The notes under the pieces: generated by a model
The model's input: the letters and a program-made list of their open reading frames with translations, nothing else
Databases searched by the model: none
Told to the model about the DNA's origin: nothing
Assembly: GCF_023369555.1 (NCBI RefSeq)
Contig: NZ_JACJVC010000010.1
Coordinates: 1-64,000, forward strand
Source: Actinomyces sp. AC-20-1
GTDB taxonomy: Bacteria; Actinomycetota; Actinomycetes; Actinomycetales; Actinomycetaceae
DNA length: 64,000 bases
Reading direction: 5' to 3'
Made by a program: the position numbers and the translations under genes
Shown: piece after piece, positions 3,927 through 13,486 of the stretch
How the letters are laid out: each line of letters begins with the position of its first letter
How positions within the stretch are numbered: the stretch's first letter is position 1

Positions 3927-4828
3927 CCGCCACCCCGACCCCCCGCCGCGTGCTCGTCCTCCAGCGCGAGCACAACGACCAGCCCGTCCCCGCCTCCCGC
4001 CGCACCGGCTCCACCGCCCTCGTCGGGGAGCGGGTGCGCCGGGCCCTGCGCTCCCACGGCGTCCAGCCCGTCGCCCCCGGGGACGGCGGCGCCGACCTCG
4101 TCCTCGTCCTCGGCGGTGACGGCACGATCCTGCGCGCCTGCGAGATCGCCCGCGACCTCGACGTCCCGCTCGTCGGCATCAACACAGGGCACGTCGGCTT
4201 CCTGGCGGAGGCGGACCCGGACGACGTCGAGCAGGTCGTCACCGACCTCGTCGCCGGCCGTTACACCGTCGACGAGCGCATGACTATCGAGGTCGAGGTC
4301 GAGACCCCCGACGGCAAGGTCACCCACGGCTGGGCGCTCAACGAGGCGGCCCTGGAGAAGCGCGACCGCGCCCGCATGCTCGAGATCGCCGTCGGCGTCG
4401 ACGGCCAGGCCGTGTCCTCCTTCGGCTGCGACGGCCTGCTCCTGGCCACACCCACCGGCTCCACCGCCTACGCCTTCTCCGCCGGCGGCCCCGTCATCTG
4501 GCCCGAGGTCGAGGCCCTGCTGCTCGTGCCCATCGCCGCCCACGCCCTGTTCACCCGCCCCCTCGTCGTCGGGCCCCGCTCCTGCCTCGAGGTCAGGGTC
4601 CGGGAGACCGGCCTGCAGCAGGCGGAGATCTGGTGCGACGGGCGCCGGATGCTGCCCGTGCCGCCCCACAGCGTCATCCGCGTGCGCCGAGGCGAGCGCA
4701 ACGTGCGCCTGGCCCGTCTCAACGACGCCCCCTTCTCCGAGCGCCTCGTGCGCAAGTTCTCCCTGCCGGTGGCCGGGTGGCGGGAGACCACCGGGGCCGT
4801 CCCCTCCCACGAGGACGGCGCCTCGTGA
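3923..4828 (+). CDS. nadK: NAD kinase
   Basis: A 301-residue ATP/polyphosphate-NAD kinase that phosphorylates NAD+ to NADP+ in the cytoplasm. The diagnostic GGDGT motif lies near residues 63-67 (VLGGDGTILRACE), followed by GINTGHVGFLAEA. The NE/D motif is NEAALEKRDRARM, and the conserved glycine-rich motif is CDGLLLATPTGSTAYAFSAG. Length is normal for the family. The GTG start overlaps the tlyA stop by 4 nt and its own stop overlaps the recN start, the same tlyA-ppnK-recN order as in M. tuberculosis (Rv1694-Rv1696). Confidence 0.95.
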   Translation: MTATPTPRRVLVLQREHNDQPVPASRRTGSTALVGERVRRALRSHGVQPVAPGDGGADLVLVLGGDGTILRACEIARDLDVPLVGINTGHVGFLAEADPDDVEQVVTDLVAGRYTVDERMTIEVEVETPDGKVTHGWALNEAALEKRDRARMLEIAVGVDGQAVSSFGCDGLLLATPTGSTAYAFSAGGPVIWPEVEALLLVPIAAHALFTRPLVVGPRSCLEVRVRETGLQQAEIWCDGRRMLPVPPHSVIRVRRGERNVRLARLNDAPFSERLVRKFSLPVAGWRETTGAVPSHEDGAS

Positions 4829-6663
4829 TCGAGTCCCTGCACATCGAGGACCTCGGCGTCATCGAGCGGGCCGACCTGCGCCTGAGCCCCGGCCTGACCG
4901 CTCTCACCGGTGAGACCGGCGCGGGCAAGACCATGGTGCTCACCTCCCTGGGCCTGCTGCTCGGCCAGCGCGCCGAGAGCACCATCGTGCGCACCGGCAC
5001 CGAGCGCACGCTCGTCGAGGGCACCTTCGCCCTCGACCCGGGCTCCCGCGCCGCCCAGCGCGCCCTCGACGCCGGCGCCGAGCTCGACGACGACCTCCTC
5101 ATCGCCTCACGCACCGTCCCCGCCACCGGGCGCTCGCGCGCCCACCTCGGCGGACGCTCCGTGCCCTCCGGCATCCTGACGGAGGTCGGGGCCCAGCTCG
5201 TGAGCGTCCACGGCCAGGCCGACCAGCTGCGCCTGCGCTCGGCCTCCGCCCAGCGCGCCGCCCTCGACTCTCTCGGCGGCAGCGGCCACACCGCCCTGTG
5301 CCGCCGCTACGCCGAGGCCTACCGCGCCCTCCAGCGCTGCGAGCAGGACCTCGCCGACTGGCAGGCCGACGCCGAGGACCGGGCCGCCGAGGCCGCCCGC
5401 CTGCGCCACTGGCTCGAGGCCGTCGAGGAGACCGCCCCCCAGCCCGGGGAGGATGCCGCCCTCACCCTCGAGGCCGAGCGCCTGGACCACGCCGAGGACC
5501 TGCGCCTGGCCGCCGGGTCCGCCCGCACCGCGCTGGCCGGCGACGAGGACCTGCCCGGGGAGTCTCCCGACGTCCTCGCCCTCATCGCCCACGCCGAGCG
5601 GGCCCTGGCCCCCGTCGCCGACATCGACCCGGTCCTGGCCGAGTTGGCCGGGCGCGCCCGGCAGCTGTCCGTCCTCGCCGCCGACACCGCCTCCGACCTG
5701 GGCGAGTACCTCGCCTCCCTCGACGCCGACCCCGCCCGCCTTGCCTGGGTCCAGGACCGTCGCGGCGAGCTCGCCCGCCTGCTCAAGGAGGTCGGCGGCC
5801 CCGAGGACCAGGTCGACGACGTCGACACCCTCCTCGCCTTCTGCGAGCGCGCCGCCGAGCGCCTGGCGCGGATCGACGGGCCCGAGGACACCGCCACCGC
5901 GCTCACCGCCCAGCGCGACGCCGCCCGTGACGAGCTCGGTGCCATCGCCCGCGAGCTGACGGCCGCCCGCACCGCCCTGGCCGGCCGCCTCGAGGCGGCG
6001 GTCACCGCCGAGCTCGAGGGCCTGCAGATGAAGGGGGCGCGCCTCGTCGTCGCCCTCGAGGCCCTGGACGAGCCGGGCCCCACCGGCGCGGAGACCGTCG
6101 CCCTTCTGCTGTCCCCGCACCCCGGGGCCCCCGCCCTGCCGCTCGGCAAGGGCGCCTCCGGCGGTGAGCTCAGCCGCATCATGCTCGCCCTCGAGGTGGT
6201 GCTCGCCGAGACCTCGCGGGCCGCCCAGGGGCAGTCCGGTCAGTCCAGACAGTCCAGCGGGCCCGGTCAGTCCGGGCACGACGGGCACCAGCGCACCCTC
6301 GTCTTCGACGAGATCGACGCCGGGGTCGGGGGGCGCGCCGCACGCGAGATCGGGCGCCGCCTCGCCCGCCTCGCTCGCAGCCACCAGGTGGTGGTCGTCA
6401 CCCACCTGGCCCAGGTCGCCGCCTGGGCCGACACCCAGCTCGTCGTCCACAAGGAGCAGGCACCCGGGGACCGTCAGGACGGCGCGCACCGCGACAGCCC
6501 CGCCACCGCGGGCCGGACCCGCACCCGGGTCCTCGACGTGCGTGGCGAGGACAGGGTGCGTGAGCTCGCCCGCATGCTCTCCGGCCACGAGGACTCCGAC
6601 GCCGCCCTGCGCCACGCCGCTGAGCTGCTTGACGAGGCCCGCGTGGCACAATCCCAGGCGTGA
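4825..6663 (+). CDS. recN: DNA repair protein RecN
   Basis: A 612-residue SMC-like ATPase for double-strand break repair. Walker A GETGAGKT is at residues 29-36, the ABC signature GASGGELSR is near 442, Walker B FDEIDAGVGG near 495, and the H-loop is in VVVTHLAQVAAW. A long Glu/Ala/Arg-rich coiled-coil region sits between the two ATPase halves. The GTG at 4825 overlaps the NAD kinase stop by 4 nt; an in-frame ATG at 4633 lies inside nadK and gives non-homologous sequence. A Gln/Ser/Gly low-complexity insert (QSGQSRQSSGPGQSGHDGH) separates the signature from Walker B, and a second polar insert follows the H-loop (near 550-575). These make it somewhat longer than typical RecN (about 550-590). 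Confidence 0.93.
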   Translation: MIESLHIEDLGVIERADLRLSPGLTALTGETGAGKTMVLTSLGLLLGQRAESTIVRTGTERTLVEGTFALDPGSRAAQRALDAGAELDDDLLIASRTVPATGRSRAHLGGRSVPSGILTEVGAQLVSVHGQADQLRLRSASAQRAALDSLGGSGHTALCRRYAEAYRALQRCEQDLADWQADAEDRAAEAARLRHWLEAVEETAPQPGEDAALTLEAERLDHAEDLRLAAGSARTALAGDEDLPGESPDVLALIAHAERALAPVADIDPVLAELAGRARQLSVLAADTASDLGEYLASLDADPARLAWVQDRRGELARLLKEVGGPEDQVDDVDTLLAFCERAAERLARIDGPEDTATALTAQRDAARDELGAIARELTAARTALAGRLEAAVTAELEGLQMKGARLVVALEALDEPGPTGAETVALLLSPHPGAPALPLGKGASGGELSRIMLALEVVLAETSRAAQGQSGQSRQSSGPGQSGHDGHQRTLVFDEIDAGVGGRAAREIGRRLARLARSHQVVVVTHLAQVAAWADTQLVVHKEQAPGDRQDGAHRDSPATAGRTRTRVLDVRGEDRVRELARMLSGHEDSDAALRHAAELLDEARVAQSQA

Positions 6664-7883
6664 GGAACCCGTTCCGCAAGCAGACGGCGTCGGACCCCGA
6701 GCGCCCCAGCGGCGTGGTCCGGGTGGACGCGCGCACCAAGAAGCTGACCAAGAGGATCCAGGTCGGTGAGGTCGCCGTCATCGACCACACCGACCTCGAC
6801 CGGGTCGCCGCCGAGGCCCTGGTCGAGGCCGGGCCCGTCGCCGTCCTCAACGCCGCACCCTCCGTCTCCGGCCGCTACCCCAACCTCGGCCCCGGCATCC
6901 TCCTCGATGCCGGCATCCCCCTCGTCGACGACCTCGGCCCCGACGTCATGCGCCTGCGCGAGGGCCAGCGCGTCGTCGTCGACCTCAGTGACGGCGAGGC
7001 CCGCGGCGCCGTCCGCCTGCTCGGCTCCGACGACGTCCTCGCCCAGGGCACCGTCCAGACCGCCCAGAGCGTCGCCGACTCCATGGAGGCCGCCAAGGAG
7101 GGGCTGGCCGTCCAGCTCGAGGCCTTCGCCGCCAACACCATGGAGTACATGCGCGGCGAGAGGGACCTGCTGCTCAACGGCGTCGGCATGCCGGACGTGC
7201 GCACCCCCATGAGCGGGCGCCACGTCCTGGTCGTCGTGCGCGGCTACTCCTACAAGGAGGACCTGGCGGCCCTGCGCCCCTACATCCGCGAGTACAAGCC
7301 CGTCATCATCGGCGTCGACGGCGGCGCGGACGCCGTCCTCGAGGCCGGATTCACGCCCCACATGATCGTCGGCGACATGGACTCGGTCTCGGACAAGGCG
7401 CTGCGCTGCGGTGCCGAGGTCATCGTCCACGCCTACCGCGACGGGCACGCCCCCGGGCTCAAGCGCGTCGAGGAGCTGGGCGTGGAGCACCTCGTCTTCG
7501 CCGCCACGGGCACCAGCGAGGACATCGCCATGCTCCTGGCCGACGCCGCCGGCGCCGAGCTCATCGTCGCCCTGGGCACGCACGCGACCCTGCTCGAGTT
7601 CCTCGACAAGGGGCGCGCGGGCATGTCCTCCACCTTCCTCACCCGGCTCAAGGTCGGCGGGCGCCTCATCGACGCCAAGGGCGTCTCACGGCTCTACCGC
7701 ACCCGCATCTCCGGCTGGCAGCTGCTGCTGCTGGCACTGTCCGGGCTCGTCGCCCTCTTCGTCGCCCTCGCCTTCACACCGGCCGGCCAGACCTTCCTCG
7801 GCCTGTCCGGCGCCGTGTGGGACGAGCTCCTGACCTTCCTCCGCTCGCTGGTCGGCCTCGCGCCGGACAGCCCCTCCGTCTGA
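6660..7883 (+). CDS. steA: SteA-like cytokinesis/cell-envelope protein (thiamine pyrophosphokinase-like fold, C-terminal TM)
   Basis: A 407-residue protein matching the SteA family (Rv1697; Cg1603 of C. glutamicum). The central part, near 185-330, resembles a thiamin pyrophosphokinase catalytic domain (IIGVDGGADAVLEAGFTPHM, VGDMDSVSDKALR). A single strongly hydrophobic helix lies near 353-375 (LLLLALSGLVALFVALAF), with a short extracytoplasmic tail. In corynebacteria SteA and SteB form a membrane complex at the division site that activates peptidoglycan hydrolysis through RipA. The GTG start overlaps the recN stop by 4 nt, and steB follows 45 nt downstream, so the pair is intact. Confidence 0.85.
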   Translation: MRNPFRKQTASDPERPSGVVRVDARTKKLTKRIQVGEVAVIDHTDLDRVAAEALVEAGPVAVLNAAPSVSGRYPNLGPGILLDAGIPLVDDLGPDVMRLREGQRVVVDLSDGEARGAVRLLGSDDVLAQGTVQTAQSVADSMEAAKEGLAVQLEAFAANTMEYMRGERDLLLNGVGMPDVRTPMSGRHVLVVVRGYSYKEDLAALRPYIREYKPVIIGVDGGADAVLEAGFTPHMIVGDMDSVSDKALRCGAEVIVHAYRDGHAPGLKRVEELGVEHLVFAATGTSEDIAMLLADAAGAELIVALGTHATLLEFLDKGRAGMSSTFLTRLKVGGRLIDAKGVSRLYRTRISGWQLLLLALSGLVALFVALAFTPAGQTFLGLSGAVWDELLTFLRSLVGLAPDSPSV

Positions 7884-7928
7884 GCAGACGCCGTCACGCA
7901 CCCGAAGACCACGACAGGCACACAGATC

Positions 7929-8954
7929 ATGATCGACTTCCGCTACCACCTCGTCTCGCTCATCTCCGTCTTCCTCGCCCTGGCCGTCGGCGTCGTGCTC
8001 GGCGCCGGCCCGCTGCAGAACTCGCTGGGCACCGCGCTCAACGACCAGGTCTCCTCCCTGCGCGAGGACCGCAACCAGACCCAGGCACGCCTCGAGGCCA
8101 CCGAGAGCGCCGTCAACGAGCGCGACGAGTACATCATGTCCGCCGCCTCCTCCCTCCTGCCCGGCACGCTCCAGGGACGCGCCATCGCCCTCGTCATCCT
8201 GCCCGGGGCGCTGGGCGAGGACATCGACGCGACCTCCGCCGCCCTCGCGGAGGCCGGCGCCACCGTCGTCGGCCGCGTGAGCCTCACCAGCGCCTGGGTG
8301 CAGTCCTCCCGGGCCACCTACCGCTCCACCTACTCCGGCTCCGTCGCCGGGTACCTGGGCGGTGCCGCCTCCTCCGCCGAGGCCAACACCGTCCTGGGCC
8401 AGGCCCTGGCCGCCACCCTGACCGGCACGGACCAGAACGCCTCGACGCTCAGCGGCATGCTCACCGCCTCCGCCCAGGGGGCGGACCCGCTCATGACCGT
8501 CGACGCCGAGCTCACCGCACCGGCGGACGGCGTCGTCGTCATCGGCCCGCGTGCGAGCGAGACCGACGAGGACGGGGCCAGCGCCACCCCGACCGACGCC
8601 GAGGACCCCGCCGCCTGGACCGAGGCCATGGTGGGCCTCGCCTCGGCCGTGCCCACACTCGTCCTGGGCTCCGCGGAGGCGGGCACCGACCTCGTCGCCG
8701 GGCTGCGCACCGCCGCCGCACCCGTGTCCACCGTCGACTCCGTGGGCCAGGCCGCCGCCACGGTCTCCGTGCCCCTGGCCCTGGCCGAGGCCCTTGCCGG
8801 GGGGCGGGGCCACTACGGCTTCGACGACGGGGCCGACGCCGTCATGCCGGACGTCCCCGAGCCCACCGCCCAGGCGACGGGCCAGCCTGCTGAGCAGGCC
8901 CAGCCCGCTGCCGACCCGGCCCAGGCCCAGCCCTCCGAGGGGAGCGAGGGCTGA
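7929..8954 (+). CDS. steB: SteB/MctB-type envelope protein ('copper transporter' family)
   Basis: A 341-residue protein with the family N-terminus MIDFRYHLVSLISVFLALAV, giving one TM helix at residues 8-28. It is followed by a coiled-coil stretch (LNDQVSSLREDRNQTQARLE) and a mostly beta/alpha extracytoplasmic domain. The C-terminal 40 residues are Pro/Ala/Gln-rich. Rv1698 (MctB) was described as a porin-like copper-efflux protein; the corynebacterial homologue (SteB) was later shown to partner SteA in cell separation. The sequence favours the SteB reading, because one N-terminal helix plus coiled coil does not look like a beta-barrel. It is probably cotranscribed with steA. Confidence 0.85.
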   Translation: MIDFRYHLVSLISVFLALAVGVVLGAGPLQNSLGTALNDQVSSLREDRNQTQARLEATESAVNERDEYIMSAASSLLPGTLQGRAIALVILPGALGEDIDATSAALAEAGATVVGRVSLTSAWVQSSRATYRSTYSGSVAGYLGGAASSAEANTVLGQALAATLTGTDQNASTLSGMLTASAQGADPLMTVDAELTAPADGVVVIGPRASETDEDGASATPTDAEDPAAWTEAMVGLASAVPTLVLGSAEAGTDLVAGLRTAAAPVSTVDSVGQAAATVSVPLALAEALAGGRGHYGFDDGADAVMPDVPEPTAQATGQPAEQAQPAADPAQAQPSEGSEG

Positions 8955-8989
8955 GGCCCGGCAGCGCCCGGCACCCGCAGGCACGGCCC

Positions 8990-8995
8990 TAGCCT
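8990..8995 (+). promoter_or_regulatory. -10 element TAGCCT for a leaderless start
   Basis: TAGCCT ends 6 nt before the ATG at 9002. This spacing places the transcription start at or next to the start codon. No clear -35 hexamer is visible. The same arrangement recurs before nine other genes in the window. Confidence 0.6.
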
Positions 8996-9001
8996 GAGCC
9001 C

Positions 9002-9952
9002 ATGAGCACCCGAGCCACCACGCTGCCCGGCCCCCGTGGGCCACGGGCCCCCGTCGCCCTCATGGCCCTGACCGCGACCCTCCTGGGCAGCCGGGCCCTG
9101 CGCGCGCCGCGCTGGACCAAGAAGCACCTGGAGCGCACGAACTACCACGGCCGCACCGTGAGCCTGCGCGGAGGGGTCGGTGTCGCCCTCGGCACGCTCA
9201 CCGCCCCCTCCTGCGCCGGGGCCGTGCTCCACGACGCCGCCCGCCCTCGCACCGCGCTGCCCGCGGTCGCGGGCGTCGTCGCCGCCTCGGCCGGCGGGCT
9301 GGCCGGGCTGGTGGACGACCTCGACGCCGGGGCGCACGACGGCGACGCTCCCGCCAAGGGCCTGCGCGGCCACCTCGGCGCCCTGCGCGAGGGTCGGGTG
9401 ACCACCGGGGCCCTCAAGATCGCCGTCATCGGTGCCGGTGCGGTGGTCGCCGGGGGCCTCCTGGCGGCCGGGCGCCGCCCCGAGGAGGGGGCGCGAGGCG
9501 CGCGTGCAGCGGTCGGTGGGGCGGCCTGGGCGGTGGACGCGGCGACGAGCGCCGTCGTCATCGCCTCCTGGGCGAATGTCCACAACCTCCTCGACCTGCG
9601 CCCGGGCCGGGCCCTCAAGGCCGCCGCCCTGCTGTCGGTGCCACTCGTCGTCGCCCCGGGGCCCCGGGCGGCCGCCTGCCGGGCGCTGGCCACGGGGGCC
9701 CTGGCCACCTCGGTGGCTGCGCTGCCCGAGGACCTGGGCGAGGACACGATGCTGGGCGACACCGGCTCCAACGCCCTCGGCGCCCTCGTGGGCACCGCCC
9801 TGGCGGCCCACCCGGCCGTCGGCCTGCGCACGGTCGCCGCCCTGGTCGGCACGGGTCTCGTGCTCGCCAGCGAGAAGGTGTCCTTCAGCGGGGTCATCGC
9901 CCGTACCCCGCTCCTCAACGCCCTCGACACCCTGGGACGCCGTGCGCGCTGA
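9002..9952 (+). CDS. MraY/WecA-like polyprenyl-phosphate sugar-phosphate transferase homologue
   Basis: A 316-residue polytopic membrane protein. Motifs match a diverged glycosyltransferase family 4 (MraY/WecA) enzyme: TNYHGRTVSLRGG near 43-55, the Asp pair in AGLVDDLDAG near 102, KGLRGHLGALREGRVTTG near 120, NVHNLLDLRPGRALK near 195, and MLGDTGSNALGALVG near 251. Enzymes of this superfamily move a phospho-sugar from a nucleotide sugar to a polyprenyl phosphate at the cytoplasmic membrane face. Substrate is unknown. The protein lies between steB and a MurJ-like flippase gene, with its last 11 nt overlapping the latter. With the GT4 gene downstream this suggests assembly of a lipid-linked saccharide. 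The ATG is chosen because a -10 hexamer sits exactly 6 nt upstream. Confidence 0.75.
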   Translation: MSTRATTLPGPRGPRAPVALMALTATLLGSRALRAPRWTKKHLERTNYHGRTVSLRGGVGVALGTLTAPSCAGAVLHDAARPRTALPAVAGVVAASAGGLAGLVDDLDAGAHDGDAPAKGLRGHLGALREGRVTTGALKIAVIGAGAVVAGGLLAAGRRPEEGARGARAAVGGAAWAVDAATSAVVIASWANVHNLLDLRPGRALKAAALLSVPLVVAPGPRAAACRALATGALATSVAALPEDLGEDTMLGDTGSNALGALVGTALAAHPAVGLRTVAALVGTGLVLASEKVSFSGVIARTPLLNALDTLGRRAR

Positions 9953-11618
9953 GACCAGCCCGGCACCGGCCGGTGACGAGGACAGCCGGCCGGCGGGCGG
10001 CCGGGCCGGCGGGGGACTTGCCGGAGCCGCGGGGGGCGTCGCCGGCCTCACCCTCGTCTCACGGGCCCTCGGCTTCCTGCGCTGGGTCGTGCAGGCCTCC
10101 ACAGTCGGTGCCGGCACCGTCGCCGGCGCCTACGCCACCGCCAACCAGGTCCCCAACGTGCTCTACGAGGTCGTCGTCGGCGGCGCCCTGGCGGCCACGG
10201 TTGTCCCCCTGCTCGCGGCGGGGATCCAACGGGGTGAGACCGGGAGGACGAGCCGCACCGTCAACGGCCTGCTCGGCCTCGTGCTCGTGGTCCTCGTGCC
10301 CCTGGGCGCCCTGCTCGCCCTGGCCGCGGACCCGGTGGCGGGCCTCTTCCCCGTGTCCGTCGGCACCGACCCCGGGGCCCAGCGCGAGCTCGTCGCCTCC
10401 TTCCTGCGCATGTTCGCGCTCCAGGTGCCCCTCTACGGCATCGGCGTCGTCCTCACCGGGGCGCTGCAGGCCCACGGGTGCTTCACCTGGCCCGCGCTCA
10501 CCCCCATCGCCTCCAGCCTCGTCGTCATGGCCGCCTACGGCGCCTACGGGGTGATGACGGGAGGAAGGGACAGCGCCGGTCCCGCCGCCCTGCAGGTGCT
10601 CGGCTGGGGCACCACCGCTGGGGTCGCCGCCCTGAGCCTGCCGCTGCTGTGGCCGGCCCGCAGGCTGGGTCTGACCCTGCGGCCGAGCCTGCGCCTGGAC
10701 AGGGGGGTCCTGAGGCGGGTCCTGCAGCTGGGGGGCGCGGGCCTGCTCACCCTCCTGACGCAGCAGCTGAGCGTCCTCGTCGTCCTGGCCATGGCCCGCG
10801 CCGGCGGCGAGGCGGGCACCGTCGCCGTCTACCAGTACACCCAGGCCGTCTACCTCCTGCCGCACGCCGTGCTCGTCGTCCCGGTGGCCACCGTCCTCTA
10901 CCCGCGTCTGTCGGCCGTCTTCGACGGCGCCGGGCCGGCTCCCACCGCGGCACGGGCGCTGGCCGGCACCTCCACCGCGCTCGTCGTCGCCGTGGCCACT
11001 GCGGGCGCGGGCGCGCTGCTGGCCGTCAGCCCGGCCGCTGAGCGGTTCTTCGGCCTGCTCACCGACGTCGACGGCATGTCCCGGGCGCTGGCGGCCCTCG
11101 CCCCTGCGCTGGTCGGCTACGCGCTGCTCCACCAGGTCACCCGCGTCCTGTTCGCGGCCGGTTGCGCCCGGGGCGCCGCCCTCGCTGCGAGCACGGGGTG
11201 GCTGAGCGTCACCATCGTCTCCGTGCTCGCCGTCCGCCTGGCCGCACCCGGCGGGGGCGACGGCGCCGCCACCCTCCTGGCCCTGTCGGCGGGGCTGAGC
11301 ACCGGCATGTGCGTGGCCGGGACGGCGCTGCTCACGGCCCTGGCCCGCGCCCTGGGACCCTCCGTCCTGCGCCCGGTGCTCCGGTGCCTGGCGGCCGCGC
11401 TGCCCGTCGCCGCCGCCGGGGGCCTGGTCTGCCGCATACTCGTGGACAGGACGGCGAGCACCGCCTGGGCGCTCGTCCTCGCGCTGCTCACGGCGCTCCT
11501 CGTCGCGGCGGCGACGCTCGGAGCCGTCGCCGCTGTGGACCGGGACCTGCTGCCGGTGCTGCGGGGGCGGGCGCACGGCACCGGCACCCTCACCACACCG
11601 AGCCAGGAGAACGGATGA
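9942..11618 (+). CDS. MurJ/MviN-like lipid flippase
   Basis: A 558-residue MOP-superfamily membrane protein with about 14 hydrophobic segments. The family N-terminus is visible as LVSRALGFLRWVVQASTVGA near 40, then AYATANQVPNVLYEVVVGGA, the equivalent of the AFxxAfriPNllrrlfgeGA signature of MurJ. MurJ flips lipid II across the membrane. The main actinobacterial murJ usually lies elsewhere and carries a C-terminal pseudokinase domain, which this protein lacks, so this may be a second, specialised flippase. The GTG at 9942 is favoured because it overlaps the end of the preceding gene and gives a family-like N-terminus; the in-frame ORF extends further upstream into that gene. The stop overlaps the next ATG by 4 nt. 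Confidence 0.85.
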   Translation: MRAETSPAPAGDEDSRPAGGRAGGGLAGAAGGVAGLTLVSRALGFLRWVVQASTVGAGTVAGAYATANQVPNVLYEVVVGGALAATVVPLLAAGIQRGETGRTSRTVNGLLGLVLVVLVPLGALLALAADPVAGLFPVSVGTDPGAQRELVASFLRMFALQVPLYGIGVVLTGALQAHGCFTWPALTPIASSLVVMAAYGAYGVMTGGRDSAGPAALQVLGWGTTAGVAALSLPLLWPARRLGLTLRPSLRLDRGVLRRVLQLGGAGLLTLLTQQLSVLVVLAMARAGGEAGTVAVYQYTQAVYLLPHAVLVVPVATVLYPRLSAVFDGAGPAPTAARALAGTSTALVVAVATAGAGALLAVSPAAERFFGLLTDVDGMSRALAALAPALVGYALLHQVTRVLFAAGCARGAALAASTGWLSVTIVSVLAVRLAAPGGGDGAATLLALSAGLSTGMCVAGTALLTALARALGPSVLRPVLRCLAAALPVAAAGGLVCRILVDRTASTAWALVLALLTALLVAAATLGAVAAVDRDLLPVLRGRAHGTGTLTTPSQENG

Positions 11619-12736
11619 AGAGCACCGCCCATGACACGCCCGCCCGGCAGCTGAGGGTGCTGGAGCTGGCCGGCTCCGCCGCCGGGGGCGTGCGGGCCCA
11701 CCTGGCCGACTGCGCCCGCCTCCTGAGCGCAGGAGGACATGACGTCGTCGTCGCCGCCCCGGCCGCGGTCACCACCGGGGCGGACCTGGGGGGCGCGCGC
11801 GCCCGTGACCTGGAGATCGGCCCCCGACCCAGCCCCGGGGACGCCGCCCTCGTCAGCCGTATCGCCTACCTCGCGCGGCACGCCGACGCCGTCCACGCCC
11901 ACGGCCTGCGCGCCGGCGCCCTGGCCGCCCTCGCCCTGGGGCCGCGCCGTCGCCGTCGCCTCGTCGTCACCCTGCACAACCGGCCCGTCGGGGGACGGTC
12001 CACCACCGTCATCGGGGCCCGCCTGGAGGCGCTCGTGGCCGCCCGGGCCGACGCGGTGCTCGCCGTCAGCCCCGACCTCGCCGAGAACGTGCGCCGACGG
12101 GGGGCGCAGGACGTGGAGATCGCGGTCATCCCCGCCCCCACCCGGCTCAGTGGAGCCGCGGCCCCCGTCGCCTCCTCGATCGAGTCCGCCTGGCACGGCG
12201 CCGACCTCAGGCTCCTCACCGTGGCCCGGCTCGCACCCCAGAAGGGGCTCGACACGCTCCTGGACGCCGCCGCCCTGCTCGCCGAGCGCCTGCCCGCCTC
12301 CCAGGGCAGGCTCGTGTGGGCGGTGGCGGGCGCGGGCCCCCTCGAGGCCGTCCTGACCGGGCGGATCGCCTCCGAGAACCTGCCCGTGCGCCTGCTCGGG
12401 CGCCGCGAGGACGTCGCCGTGCTCATGCGGGCGGCGGACGTCGTCGTGCAGACCAGCCAGTGGGAGGGCCAGCCCCTCACCATCCAGGAGGCGCTGCGCG
12501 CCGGGGCCGCCGTCGTCGCCACGGACGTCGGCGGGACGGCCGTGACCGCGGGCGGGGGAGCGGTGCTCGTCGAGCCGAGCGCCGAGGCTCTGGCCCAGGC
12601 CGTCCACCACCTCCTGACGGACACCGCGGCGCTGGCCCGGGCGCGGGACGCCTCCCGGGAGGCTGCGGCCTCGCTGCCCGGTGAGCAGGCGCTCACCGCC
12701 CAGCTCGAGCGGGTCCTGCGGGGCGCCGGGGTCTGA
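11615..12736 (+). CDS. GT4-family (GT-B fold) glycosyltransferase
   Basis: A 373-residue glycosyltransferase. The N-terminal acceptor-side motif is AAGGVRAHLADCARLL near 22-37, and mid-protein is LLTVARLAPQKGLDTLLDAA near 205, where the donor domain begins. The C-terminal donor-binding motif is EGQPLTIQEALRAGAAVVAT near 288, equivalent to the EGxPxxxxEAxxxG (EX7E) motif of GT4 enzymes. These transfer a sugar from NDP-sugar to a lipid-linked or small acceptor; donor and acceptor cannot be read from sequence. The ATG overlaps the MurJ-like stop (ATGA), so the two are translationally coupled, supporting one pathway with the MraY-like gene. An in-frame extension to 11162 falls inside the flippase gene and was rejected. 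Confidence 0.88.
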   Translation: MKSTAHDTPARQLRVLELAGSAAGGVRAHLADCARLLSAGGHDVVVAAPAAVTTGADLGGARARDLEIGPRPSPGDAALVSRIAYLARHADAVHAHGLRAGALAALALGPRRRRRLVVTLHNRPVGGRSTTVIGARLEALVAARADAVLAVSPDLAENVRRRGAQDVEIAVIPAPTRLSGAAAPVASSIESAWHGADLRLLTVARLAPQKGLDTLLDAAALLAERLPASQGRLVWAVAGAGPLEAVLTGRIASENLPVRLLGRREDVAVLMRAADVVVQTSQWEGQPLTIQEALRAGAAVVATDVGGTAVTAGGGAVLVEPSAEALAQAVHHLLTDTAALARARDASREAAASLPGEQALTAQLERVLRGAGV

Positions 12737-12747
12737 GCGGACGACCG

Positions 12748-12753
12748 TAGACT
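12748..12753 (+). promoter_or_regulatory. Possible -10 TAGACT before the NUDIX gene
   Basis: TAGACT lies 11 nt after the glycosyltransferase stop and 49 nt before the NUDIX start. It could give a leader of about 40 nt that carries the clear GAGGAGG site at 12792-12798. No good -35 is seen. Confidence 0.35.
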
Positions 12754-12802
12754 CGACGCCGGACGCGCGCCGGCGGGGTGCGCCCCAGGTTGAGGAGGAC
12801 GT

Positions 12803-13486
12803 ATGGGCGGGTACCCGACCGGCAGCGCCGGGCAGCTGAGGGACGAGCGGGACGTGCGCCCGGTCTCCGGGACCGTGAGGGCGTGGACCGGGCCGATCTG
12901 CGCGGTCGACGACGAGCTCGTGCACCTGGCGCCCGAGGAGGCGCCCGTGCGGCGCCAGACCGTCCTGCACCACGACGCCGTCACGGTCGTCGCCCTGCGC
13001 GAGGGCCAGGAGTCCTCCCAGGAGGATGGCGCGGCCGAGATCCTCATGGTGCGCCAGTACCGTCATCCCGTGCGCGCCCGCCTGTGGGAGATCCCGGCGG
13101 GCCTGCTCGACGTCGAGGACGAGGAGCCCGTGGTGGCGGCTCAGCGCGAGCTGGCCGAGGAGACCGATCATGAGGCGGCGCGCTGGCACGTGCTCGCCGA
13201 CTACTTCGCCTCCCCGGGCTTCACGACCGAGGGCGTGCGCTGCTTCCTCGCCCGGGACCTGAGCGTCCTGACCGCTGACCGGCGCACCGTGCGCGAGGCG
13301 GAGGAGGCCGAGTTCGTGCCCGCATGGTTCCGGCTGGACGACGTCGTGACGGCCGTCCTCGGCGGCGGTGTCCACAACCCGGCGACCGTCGTCGGGGCGC
13401 TGGCCGCGCAGCGCGCCCGGGACCTGGGGTGGCGGGGCCTGCGCGAGCCCGACGCCCCTCGGCTGAACAGCCCCGTGAGCCTGTAG
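12803..13486 (+). CDS. NUDIX hydrolase, ADP-ribose pyrophosphatase type
   Basis: A 227-residue NUDIX enzyme. The Nudix box is in PAGLLDVEDEEPVVAAQREL followed by AEETDHEAA, at about residues 99-125. The core RELxEE is intact, but the usual first Glu is Asp and the Gly after EET is Asp. PAGLL before the box and the RQYRHPV motif upstream (MVRQYRHPVRARLWEI) are typical of ADP-ribose pyrophosphatases, which split ADP-ribose into AMP and ribose-5-phosphate. Rv1700, in the matching M. tuberculosis neighbourhood, is of this type. A strong GAGGAGG precedes the ATG by 4 nt. Confidence 0.9.
   Translation: MGGYPTGSAGQLRDERDVRPVSGTVRAWTGPICAVDDELVHLAPEEAPVRRQTVLHHDAVTVVALREGQESSQEDGAAEILMVRQYRHPVRARLWEIPAGLLDVEDEEPVVAAQRELAEETDHEAARWHVLADYFASPGFTTEGVRCFLARDLSVLTADRRTVREAEEAEFVPAWFRLDDVVTAVLGGGVHNPATVVGALAAQRARDLGWRGLREPDAPRLNSPVSL

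Follow-up and report, generated by a model that had tools for sequence, protein, structure and literature searches.

The window analysed here, a 64,000-nucleotide stretch of Actinomyces sp. AC-20-1 (contig NZ_JACJVC010000010.1, positions 1 to 64,000), contains the genes for SteA and SteB, which in Corynebacterium and Mycobacterium make up a system for cell separation (PMC6705760, PMC12977500). They are followed by a triplet encoding a membrane protein with a predicted MraY/WecA/DPAGT1 fold (PNPT), a MurJ-like flippase and a GT4-family glycosyltransferase (GT4). PNPT accompanies SteA across the phylum Actinomycetota and, as the main new result, SteA is eroded in seven families that lack PNPT. 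The initial annotation had described five genes on one strand, three of them joined by overlaps, and open reading frames together with family profiles confirmed this arrangement (Table 1). The GTG start of steA at 6660 gives a 4-bp overlap with the recN stop, the MurJ-like gene starts with GTG at 9942 and overlaps PNPT by 11 bp, and the overlap between the MurJ-like gene and GT4 is the 4-bp ATGA. SteA, with a TPK-like nucleotide-site motif and a SteA-like C-terminal domain, lies well above the NF040608 equivalog cut-off (495.9 against 150 bits), and SteB above the PF11382 cut-off (229 against 25.6 bits). The genome (G000; G, L and f denote genomes, loci and families throughout) comprises 2.7 Mb in 47 contigs, and the closest named matches of its MurJ-like protein are from Actinomyces; Sanguibacter and Kineosporia are among the other genera seen with it.

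Table 1. Positions in the window and family assignments of the steAB locus and its conserved neighbours.
Feature	Positions	Strand	Evidence
recN, conserved left neighbour	4825..6663	+	TIGR00634 447 bits; start approximate, match from residue 65 of the longest open reading frame
steA, cell-separation protein	6660..7883	+	NF040608 496 bits, PF12555, PF04263 at residues 213-248; PDB relatives 9hmy, 9hmz
steB (mctB)	7929..8954	+	PF11382 229 bits, full length
PNPT, MraY/WecA/DPAGT1-fold protein, distinct subfamily	9002..9952	+	fold and motif NxxNLLDLRPGRALK; probably a sugar-phosphate transferase
MurJ-like flippase, second, lower-scoring MurJ of the genome	9942..11618	+	PF03023 136 bits; TIGR01695 156 bits, cut-off 235.6
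GT4-family (GT-B) glycosyltransferase	11615..12736	+	PF00534 91 bits; E284 and E292 invariant (alignment A3)
NUDIX hydrolase, conserved right neighbour	12803..13486	+	PF00293 53 bits; synteny

The distribution of PNPT and SteA was followed in three samples that share genomes, drawn from the phylum (246 genomes), the class (197) and relatives (59). SteA was counted only above the NF040608 cut-off, which 102 of the 246 phylum genomes pass; 132 have matches at E ≤ 0.001, including short sub-threshold ones. The PNPT alignment matches 99 of the same 246 genomes. Both proteins are found in 93, PNPT only in 6, SteA only in 9 and neither in 138 (Fisher p 4.9e-49, a value that overstates independence because the genomes are related). 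The two genes share a contig in 83 of the 93 and lie within 8 kb of each other in 77 of these 83. Seven of the nine genomes with SteA only belong to f22 and one to f24, and for the ninth, G205, a contig end hides the site; the six with PNPT only are three f21 genomes and three with short or weak matches (G110, G113, G213). The class sample divides into 68 genomes with both, 10 with PNPT only, 37 with SteA only and 82 with neither, although one of the 68, G356, holds only a remnant of PNPT. PNPT is absent from all 17 SteA-containing f22 genomes at this level. Among the relatives the corresponding counts are 49, 0, 4 and 6, with contig ends hiding the PNPT site in two of the four SteA-only genomes (G047, G051). 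The SteA of four genomes of one genus (G005, G012, G014, G029) was matched in two to three pieces, perhaps through an insertion in the N-terminal half or a frame problem.

Within the class, 69 loci with PNPT were collected, 30 through searches with the MurJ-like protein and 39 picked by PNPT. Three SteA sequences occur twice among them (69 rows, 66 distinct), so a few genomes were probably fetched twice. The order SteA-SteB-PNPT-MurJ-GT4 is seen in 66 of the 69 (30/30 and 36/39, respectively); two of the three exceptions are cut by a contig end. The triplet thus co-occurs in relatives, and the initial annotation had named a lack of such co-occurrence as grounds for refuting it. The MurJ-like gene follows PNPT in all 69, including the 30 for which it was itself the query. 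The 34 loci from other classes all contain steB and pyrG, and 30 contain steA in the fetched stretch, with more varied company: six have MurJ, GT4 and an alkaline-phosphatase-like protein, two MurJ and a GT-C-like protein, and four other mixes. Because the glycosyltransferase and flippase vary between classes, PNPT is the constant part of the locus. Where PNPT is missing, the MurJ-like gene and GT4 are absent from the locus too in 22 of 23 cases, the f18 locus L141 keeping GT4. GT4 is also kept in two f90 loci, L169 and L170; L170 retains in addition a remnant of PNPT (8003-7761) beside an intact SteA, apparently a recent loss. In L166 (f87), 3.8 kb of other open reading frames without profile match lie between steB and pyrG.

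The proposal that the triplet stands in place of pyrG was rejected. pyrG is present in all 34 loci of other classes and in 43 of 60 in-class loci that have PNPT and a visible NUDIX gene, usually after PNPT or GT4, and the triplet therefore did not replace it. No CTP synthase (PF06418) was detected in G000, where 14 of 14 controls were positive, and no pyrG lies between GT4 and the NUDIX gene in 12 of 24 Actinomyces loci (L038-L061) or in the window (12736-12803). It is possible that the CTP synthase has been lost or relocated in Actinomyces.

SteA conservation was scored over 61 columns that are at least 95% conserved in 29 SteAs from PNPT-containing genomes of other classes, the in-class rows taking no part in the choice. 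All 69 in-class rows with PNPT score at least 0.95 and all 23 without PNPT at most 0.77, with no overlap. These 23 come from seven families (f9, f18, f22, f24, f82, f85, f87) and include 9 of the 17 f22 and 8 of the 14 f24 genomes of the class sample that have SteA and no PNPT. Left out of the score were G047, G051 and G205 (L139, L140, L146), in which the site is hidden by a contig end, along with four SteA-less f21 genomes and rows shorter than 320 amino acids such as G313 (f93). Two f90 genomes, G356 (L170) and G429 (L169), were judged from their loci to be recent losses and are reported apart: with one PNPT remnant and no PNPT, respectively, their SteAs score 0.93 and 1.0 between them, as would be expected if PNPT goes first and SteA erodes later. 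Counting them in, the separation becomes 23 of 25. Scored in the same way, the flanking genes of the PNPT-less rows remain conserved (RecN 0.92-1.0, PyrG 0.97-0.99, NUDIX 0.83-0.91), NUDIX being no lower than in the rows with PNPT; SteB, with only six columns, is of no use as a control.

The erosion falls on particular residues. S242, K317 and G341 are lost in all 23 PNPT-less rows, K27, G221 and S286 in about nine of ten, and T26, H43, R194, D220, H257 and P265 in most. The stretch from D220 to S242 falls in the TPK motif matched by PF04263. Some of these positions also differ in the solved SteA structures 9hmy and 9hmz (presumably those published for M. tuberculosis and C. glutamicum), where S242, for instance, is replaced by Q or G. 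The f22 loci, presumably those of the family of M. tuberculosis and C. glutamicum, share steA, steB and the recN, pyrG and NUDIX neighbours with the loci described here, but the PNPT-MurJ-GT4 triplet is missing from them, and residues that hardly vary in SteAs accompanied by PNPT have been lost from theirs.

On a tree of RecN and PyrG with 50 rows the PNPT state requires seven changes, which are read as losses because other classes have PNPT. All six independent pairs on supported branches agree between PNPT state and SteA erosion (sign test p 0.031). The reverse case is seen in four of the ten f21 genomes without SteA, in which PNPT keeps 0.70-0.83 of its 23 most conserved columns, compared with at least 0.91 in 70 loci with SteA; K206 and a C-terminal D and G are lost while the aspartate triad is kept. 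As a single family is involved, this counts as one event at most.

The co-erosion could be indirect, the envelope glycopolymer made by the triplet having been replaced in some lineages, arabinogalactan makers for instance, with SteA adapting to a changed envelope or divisome. Emb arabinosyltransferases were found in all seven PNPT-less f22 genomes tested and in none of 23 others, which would suit such a replacement and marks the arabinogalactan makers as one triplet-less group. The same SteA erosion, however, is seen in f9, f18, f24, f82, f85 and f87 (the one f24 genome tested for Emb having none), and within the cytoplasmic domain of SteA it is the TPK-like part that holds many of the eroded sites. 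An indirect link seems unlikely.

PNPT of the window matches no Pfam or NCBIfam profile at E ≤ 0.01, PF00953 included; in L119, from another class, the homologue scores 23.4 bits with PF00953, under the cut-off of 27. Since a search of PDB sequences with the PNPT profile gave no match at E ≤ 10, the assignment rests on the fold. The predicted structure, via re-alignment of the Foldseek matches, has the membrane fold of the MraY/WecA/DPAGT1 superfamily. Profile comparison with the MraY and WecA of the same genome gave a probability of 0.5%, by itself no evidence of homology, and aligned NLLDLRPG with NLADGLDG and MLGDTG with FMGDTG. D105 and D106 (a DD pair) and D253 (GD.G) are kept in 69 of 71 PNPT rows, the other two being gaps; their equivalents are presumably the metal ligands in MraY. 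In contrast to MraY, WecA and DPAGT1, the DGLDG nucleotide-binding loop, which the genome's own MraY and WecA carry, is replaced by DLRPGR-A-x-K, with proline at the position of the second aspartate in 71 of 71 rows. The C-terminal loop of the HHH type (MraY) or HxHH type (WecA), also present in the genome's own copies, is found in none of the printed PNPT rows covering the region, which instead of the HHH region of MraY have E..SF..VI....L..D..GR. Used as a query in its own genome the window PNPT matched only itself, and a scan of viral contigs gave no confirmed relative. Judged by fold and kept aspartates, PNPT probably transfers a sugar phosphate from a nucleotide sugar to polyprenyl phosphate. 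Catalytic-type aspartates beside a rebuilt nucleotide loop imply that the sugar donor is unusual and that an envelope sugar-lipid not yet described would be made in much of the phylum (99 of the 246 genomes sampled). That PNPT is instead a non-enzymatic scaffold or sensor of the SteAB membrane complex, as the missing DGLDG loop and HHH-type motif might suggest, is very improbable given that the three aspartates are kept in every covering row and that the neighbours of PNPT include glycosyltransferases, a flippase and, in some loci, a GT-C-like enzyme.

The MurJ-like protein resembles the lipid II flippase in passing PF03023 (136 against 27.4 bits) and in that all six PDB sequences it matches at E ≤ 0.001 are MurJ chains. 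It differs in falling below the TIGR01695 equivalog cut-off (155.7 against 235.55 bits) and in being a second copy beside a canonical, higher-scoring MurJ, found with PF03023 elsewhere in the genome. PF00953 likewise finds two further genes, one WecA-type and one MraY-type. Despite their fold and family similarity, the chance that PNPT and the MurJ-like protein are merely diverged housekeeping MraY and MurJ is thus negligible, and this reading was rejected on account of the separate genes, the presence of which the initial annotation had made decisive. Its use of a missing pseudokinase as the mark of a dedicated flippase does not discriminate, as the open frame of the canonical MurJ is itself only 625 amino acids long. 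GT4 combines a GT-B domain profile with an E-x7-E motif. The three-step logic is shared with wall-polysaccharide initiation and flipping (WecA or TagO, a glycosyltransferase, and Wzx or MurJ); the genes of the window differ in lying at a single locus together with regulators of cell separation.

A functional link between SteA and PNPT is much surer than any account of pathway and sensor. With that reservation, the balance tips slightly towards the triplet being a dedicated pathway for a lipid-linked sugar, functionally part of SteAB cell separation, with SteA as its sensor. PNPT would load the sugar phosphate onto polyprenyl phosphate in the membrane, GT4 would attach another sugar at the cytoplasmic face and the MurJ-like protein would flip the product outwards. 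The TPK-like pocket of SteA may bind a nucleotide, a nucleotide sugar or an intermediate of the pathway, and SteA would pass the state of the pathway via SteB to the peptidoglycan hydrolase separating the daughter cells. Because SteA and PNPT erode together, the SteA ligand would seem to come from the PNPT pathway; the co-erosion points to a substrate or product of the neighbouring genes and names the SteA residues of interest. An initiate, extend and flip pathway tied to division, as put forward in the initial annotation, thus remains the best reading, but its constant core is PNPT rather than the triplet.

The step from SteB to the peptidoglycan hydrolase has been published for M. tuberculosis and C. 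glutamicum. The SteA pocket was described as a predicted carbohydrate-binding site with similarity to nucleotide sites, and the ligand was left open by the authors (PMC12977500). Some Clostridia are reported there to carry SteAB beside spo0A, and a 2025 preprint describes mycobacterial SteA (TapA) as acting unlike the corynebacterial protein (PMC12338722). The words glycosyltransferase, flippase and MurJ do not occur in the main text of PMC12977500, and no published report of the triplet or of a link between SteAB and PNPT was found in the open-access literature searched.

The present data do not separate a sensor from an enzyme. The main rival, unlikely though carrying appreciable weight, is that SteA belongs to the pathway as an enzyme: its TPK/HMPPK-like domain would make or modify the nucleotide-activated donor of PNPT, and PNPT-less SteAs would have kept the division role only. 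Weak matches to pyrophosphokinases (8sd5, E 6e-5; 3l8m, E 0.007; PF04263) are consistent with this, as is the altered donor loop of PNPT. T26, K27, H43, R194, D220, G221, S242, H257 and S286 are conserved at 1.0 in the 69 in-class rows with PNPT; the set looks enzyme-like, and PNPT-less SteAs have lost most of it. A regulator, on the other hand, is better suited by the description of SteA as a dimer that is anchored in the membrane and forms a complex with SteB, and the published authors term it a putative phosphonucleotide-binding protein (PMC12977500).

Several observations weigh against a sugar pathway sensed by SteA. Half of the other-class loci (17/34) carry a single GT2, with no MurJ-like gene in the stretch that was fetched, and in 5 of the 34 PNPT is the only recognised sugar gene. 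The absence of the MurJ-like gene and GT4 from PNPT-less genomes is known at the locus only. All 10 PNPT-only genomes of the class sample are f21 (6-11 Mb), in which PNPT is kept without SteA, and RecN conservation is slightly lower in PNPT-less genomes (p 0.03). The placing of the eroded residues along the SteA pocket is predicted from the TPK-motif match. SteAB can evidently work without PNPT, because the family of the studied species, presumably f22, lacks it. CgSteA still responds to nucleotides: the published assay showed stabilisation by UDP and by GDP, the result for MtSteA being inconclusive (PMC12977500). Finally, the PNPT-less SteAs cluster in the SteA gene tree, where the PNPT state needs a single change, as would fit a transferred variant. 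Three SteA trees constrained to follow the species tree were not rejected in approximately unbiased (AU) tests (p 0.67, 0.25 and 0.60), and two of them had a likelihood above that of the free quick tree; long-branch attraction is therefore the simpler reading of the clustering, although some SteAs may have been exchanged between lineages.

More tentatively, and with the case leaning against it, the sensed pathway may license daughter-cell separation across Actinomycetota. PNPT would feed or make the SteA ligand, SteA would relay it via SteB to the hydrolase. The SteAB of mycobacteria and corynebacteria would then be a stripped-down form, without the pathway and with a large part of the ligand site gone. 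The structures and genetics of SteAB from these organisms may, it is suggested, describe a derived form.

A scan of the locus for promoters and terminators gave no promoter-like site and one terminator-like site, on the opposite strand, and no polymerase or ligase gene was found among the immediate neighbours scanned with Pfam and NCBIfam profiles. Homologues of an M23-peptidase-like gene of L119 lie between recN and steA in L107, L108, L119, L120 and L126, all from other classes. The label comes from a Pfam scan of L119 only, and the protein is a candidate cell-wall hydrolase partner. A large alkaline-phosphatase/sulfatase-like membrane protein is encoded in PNPT loci L100, L103, L104, L106, L107, L111 and L113, and also in L114, L118, L122, L133, L191, L194 and L198, with weak or no Pfam matches in the four examples scanned. 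GT-C-like enzymes use lipid-linked sugars, and an integral membrane protein judged by eye to be of this kind is encoded near PNPT in L107, L109 and L125.

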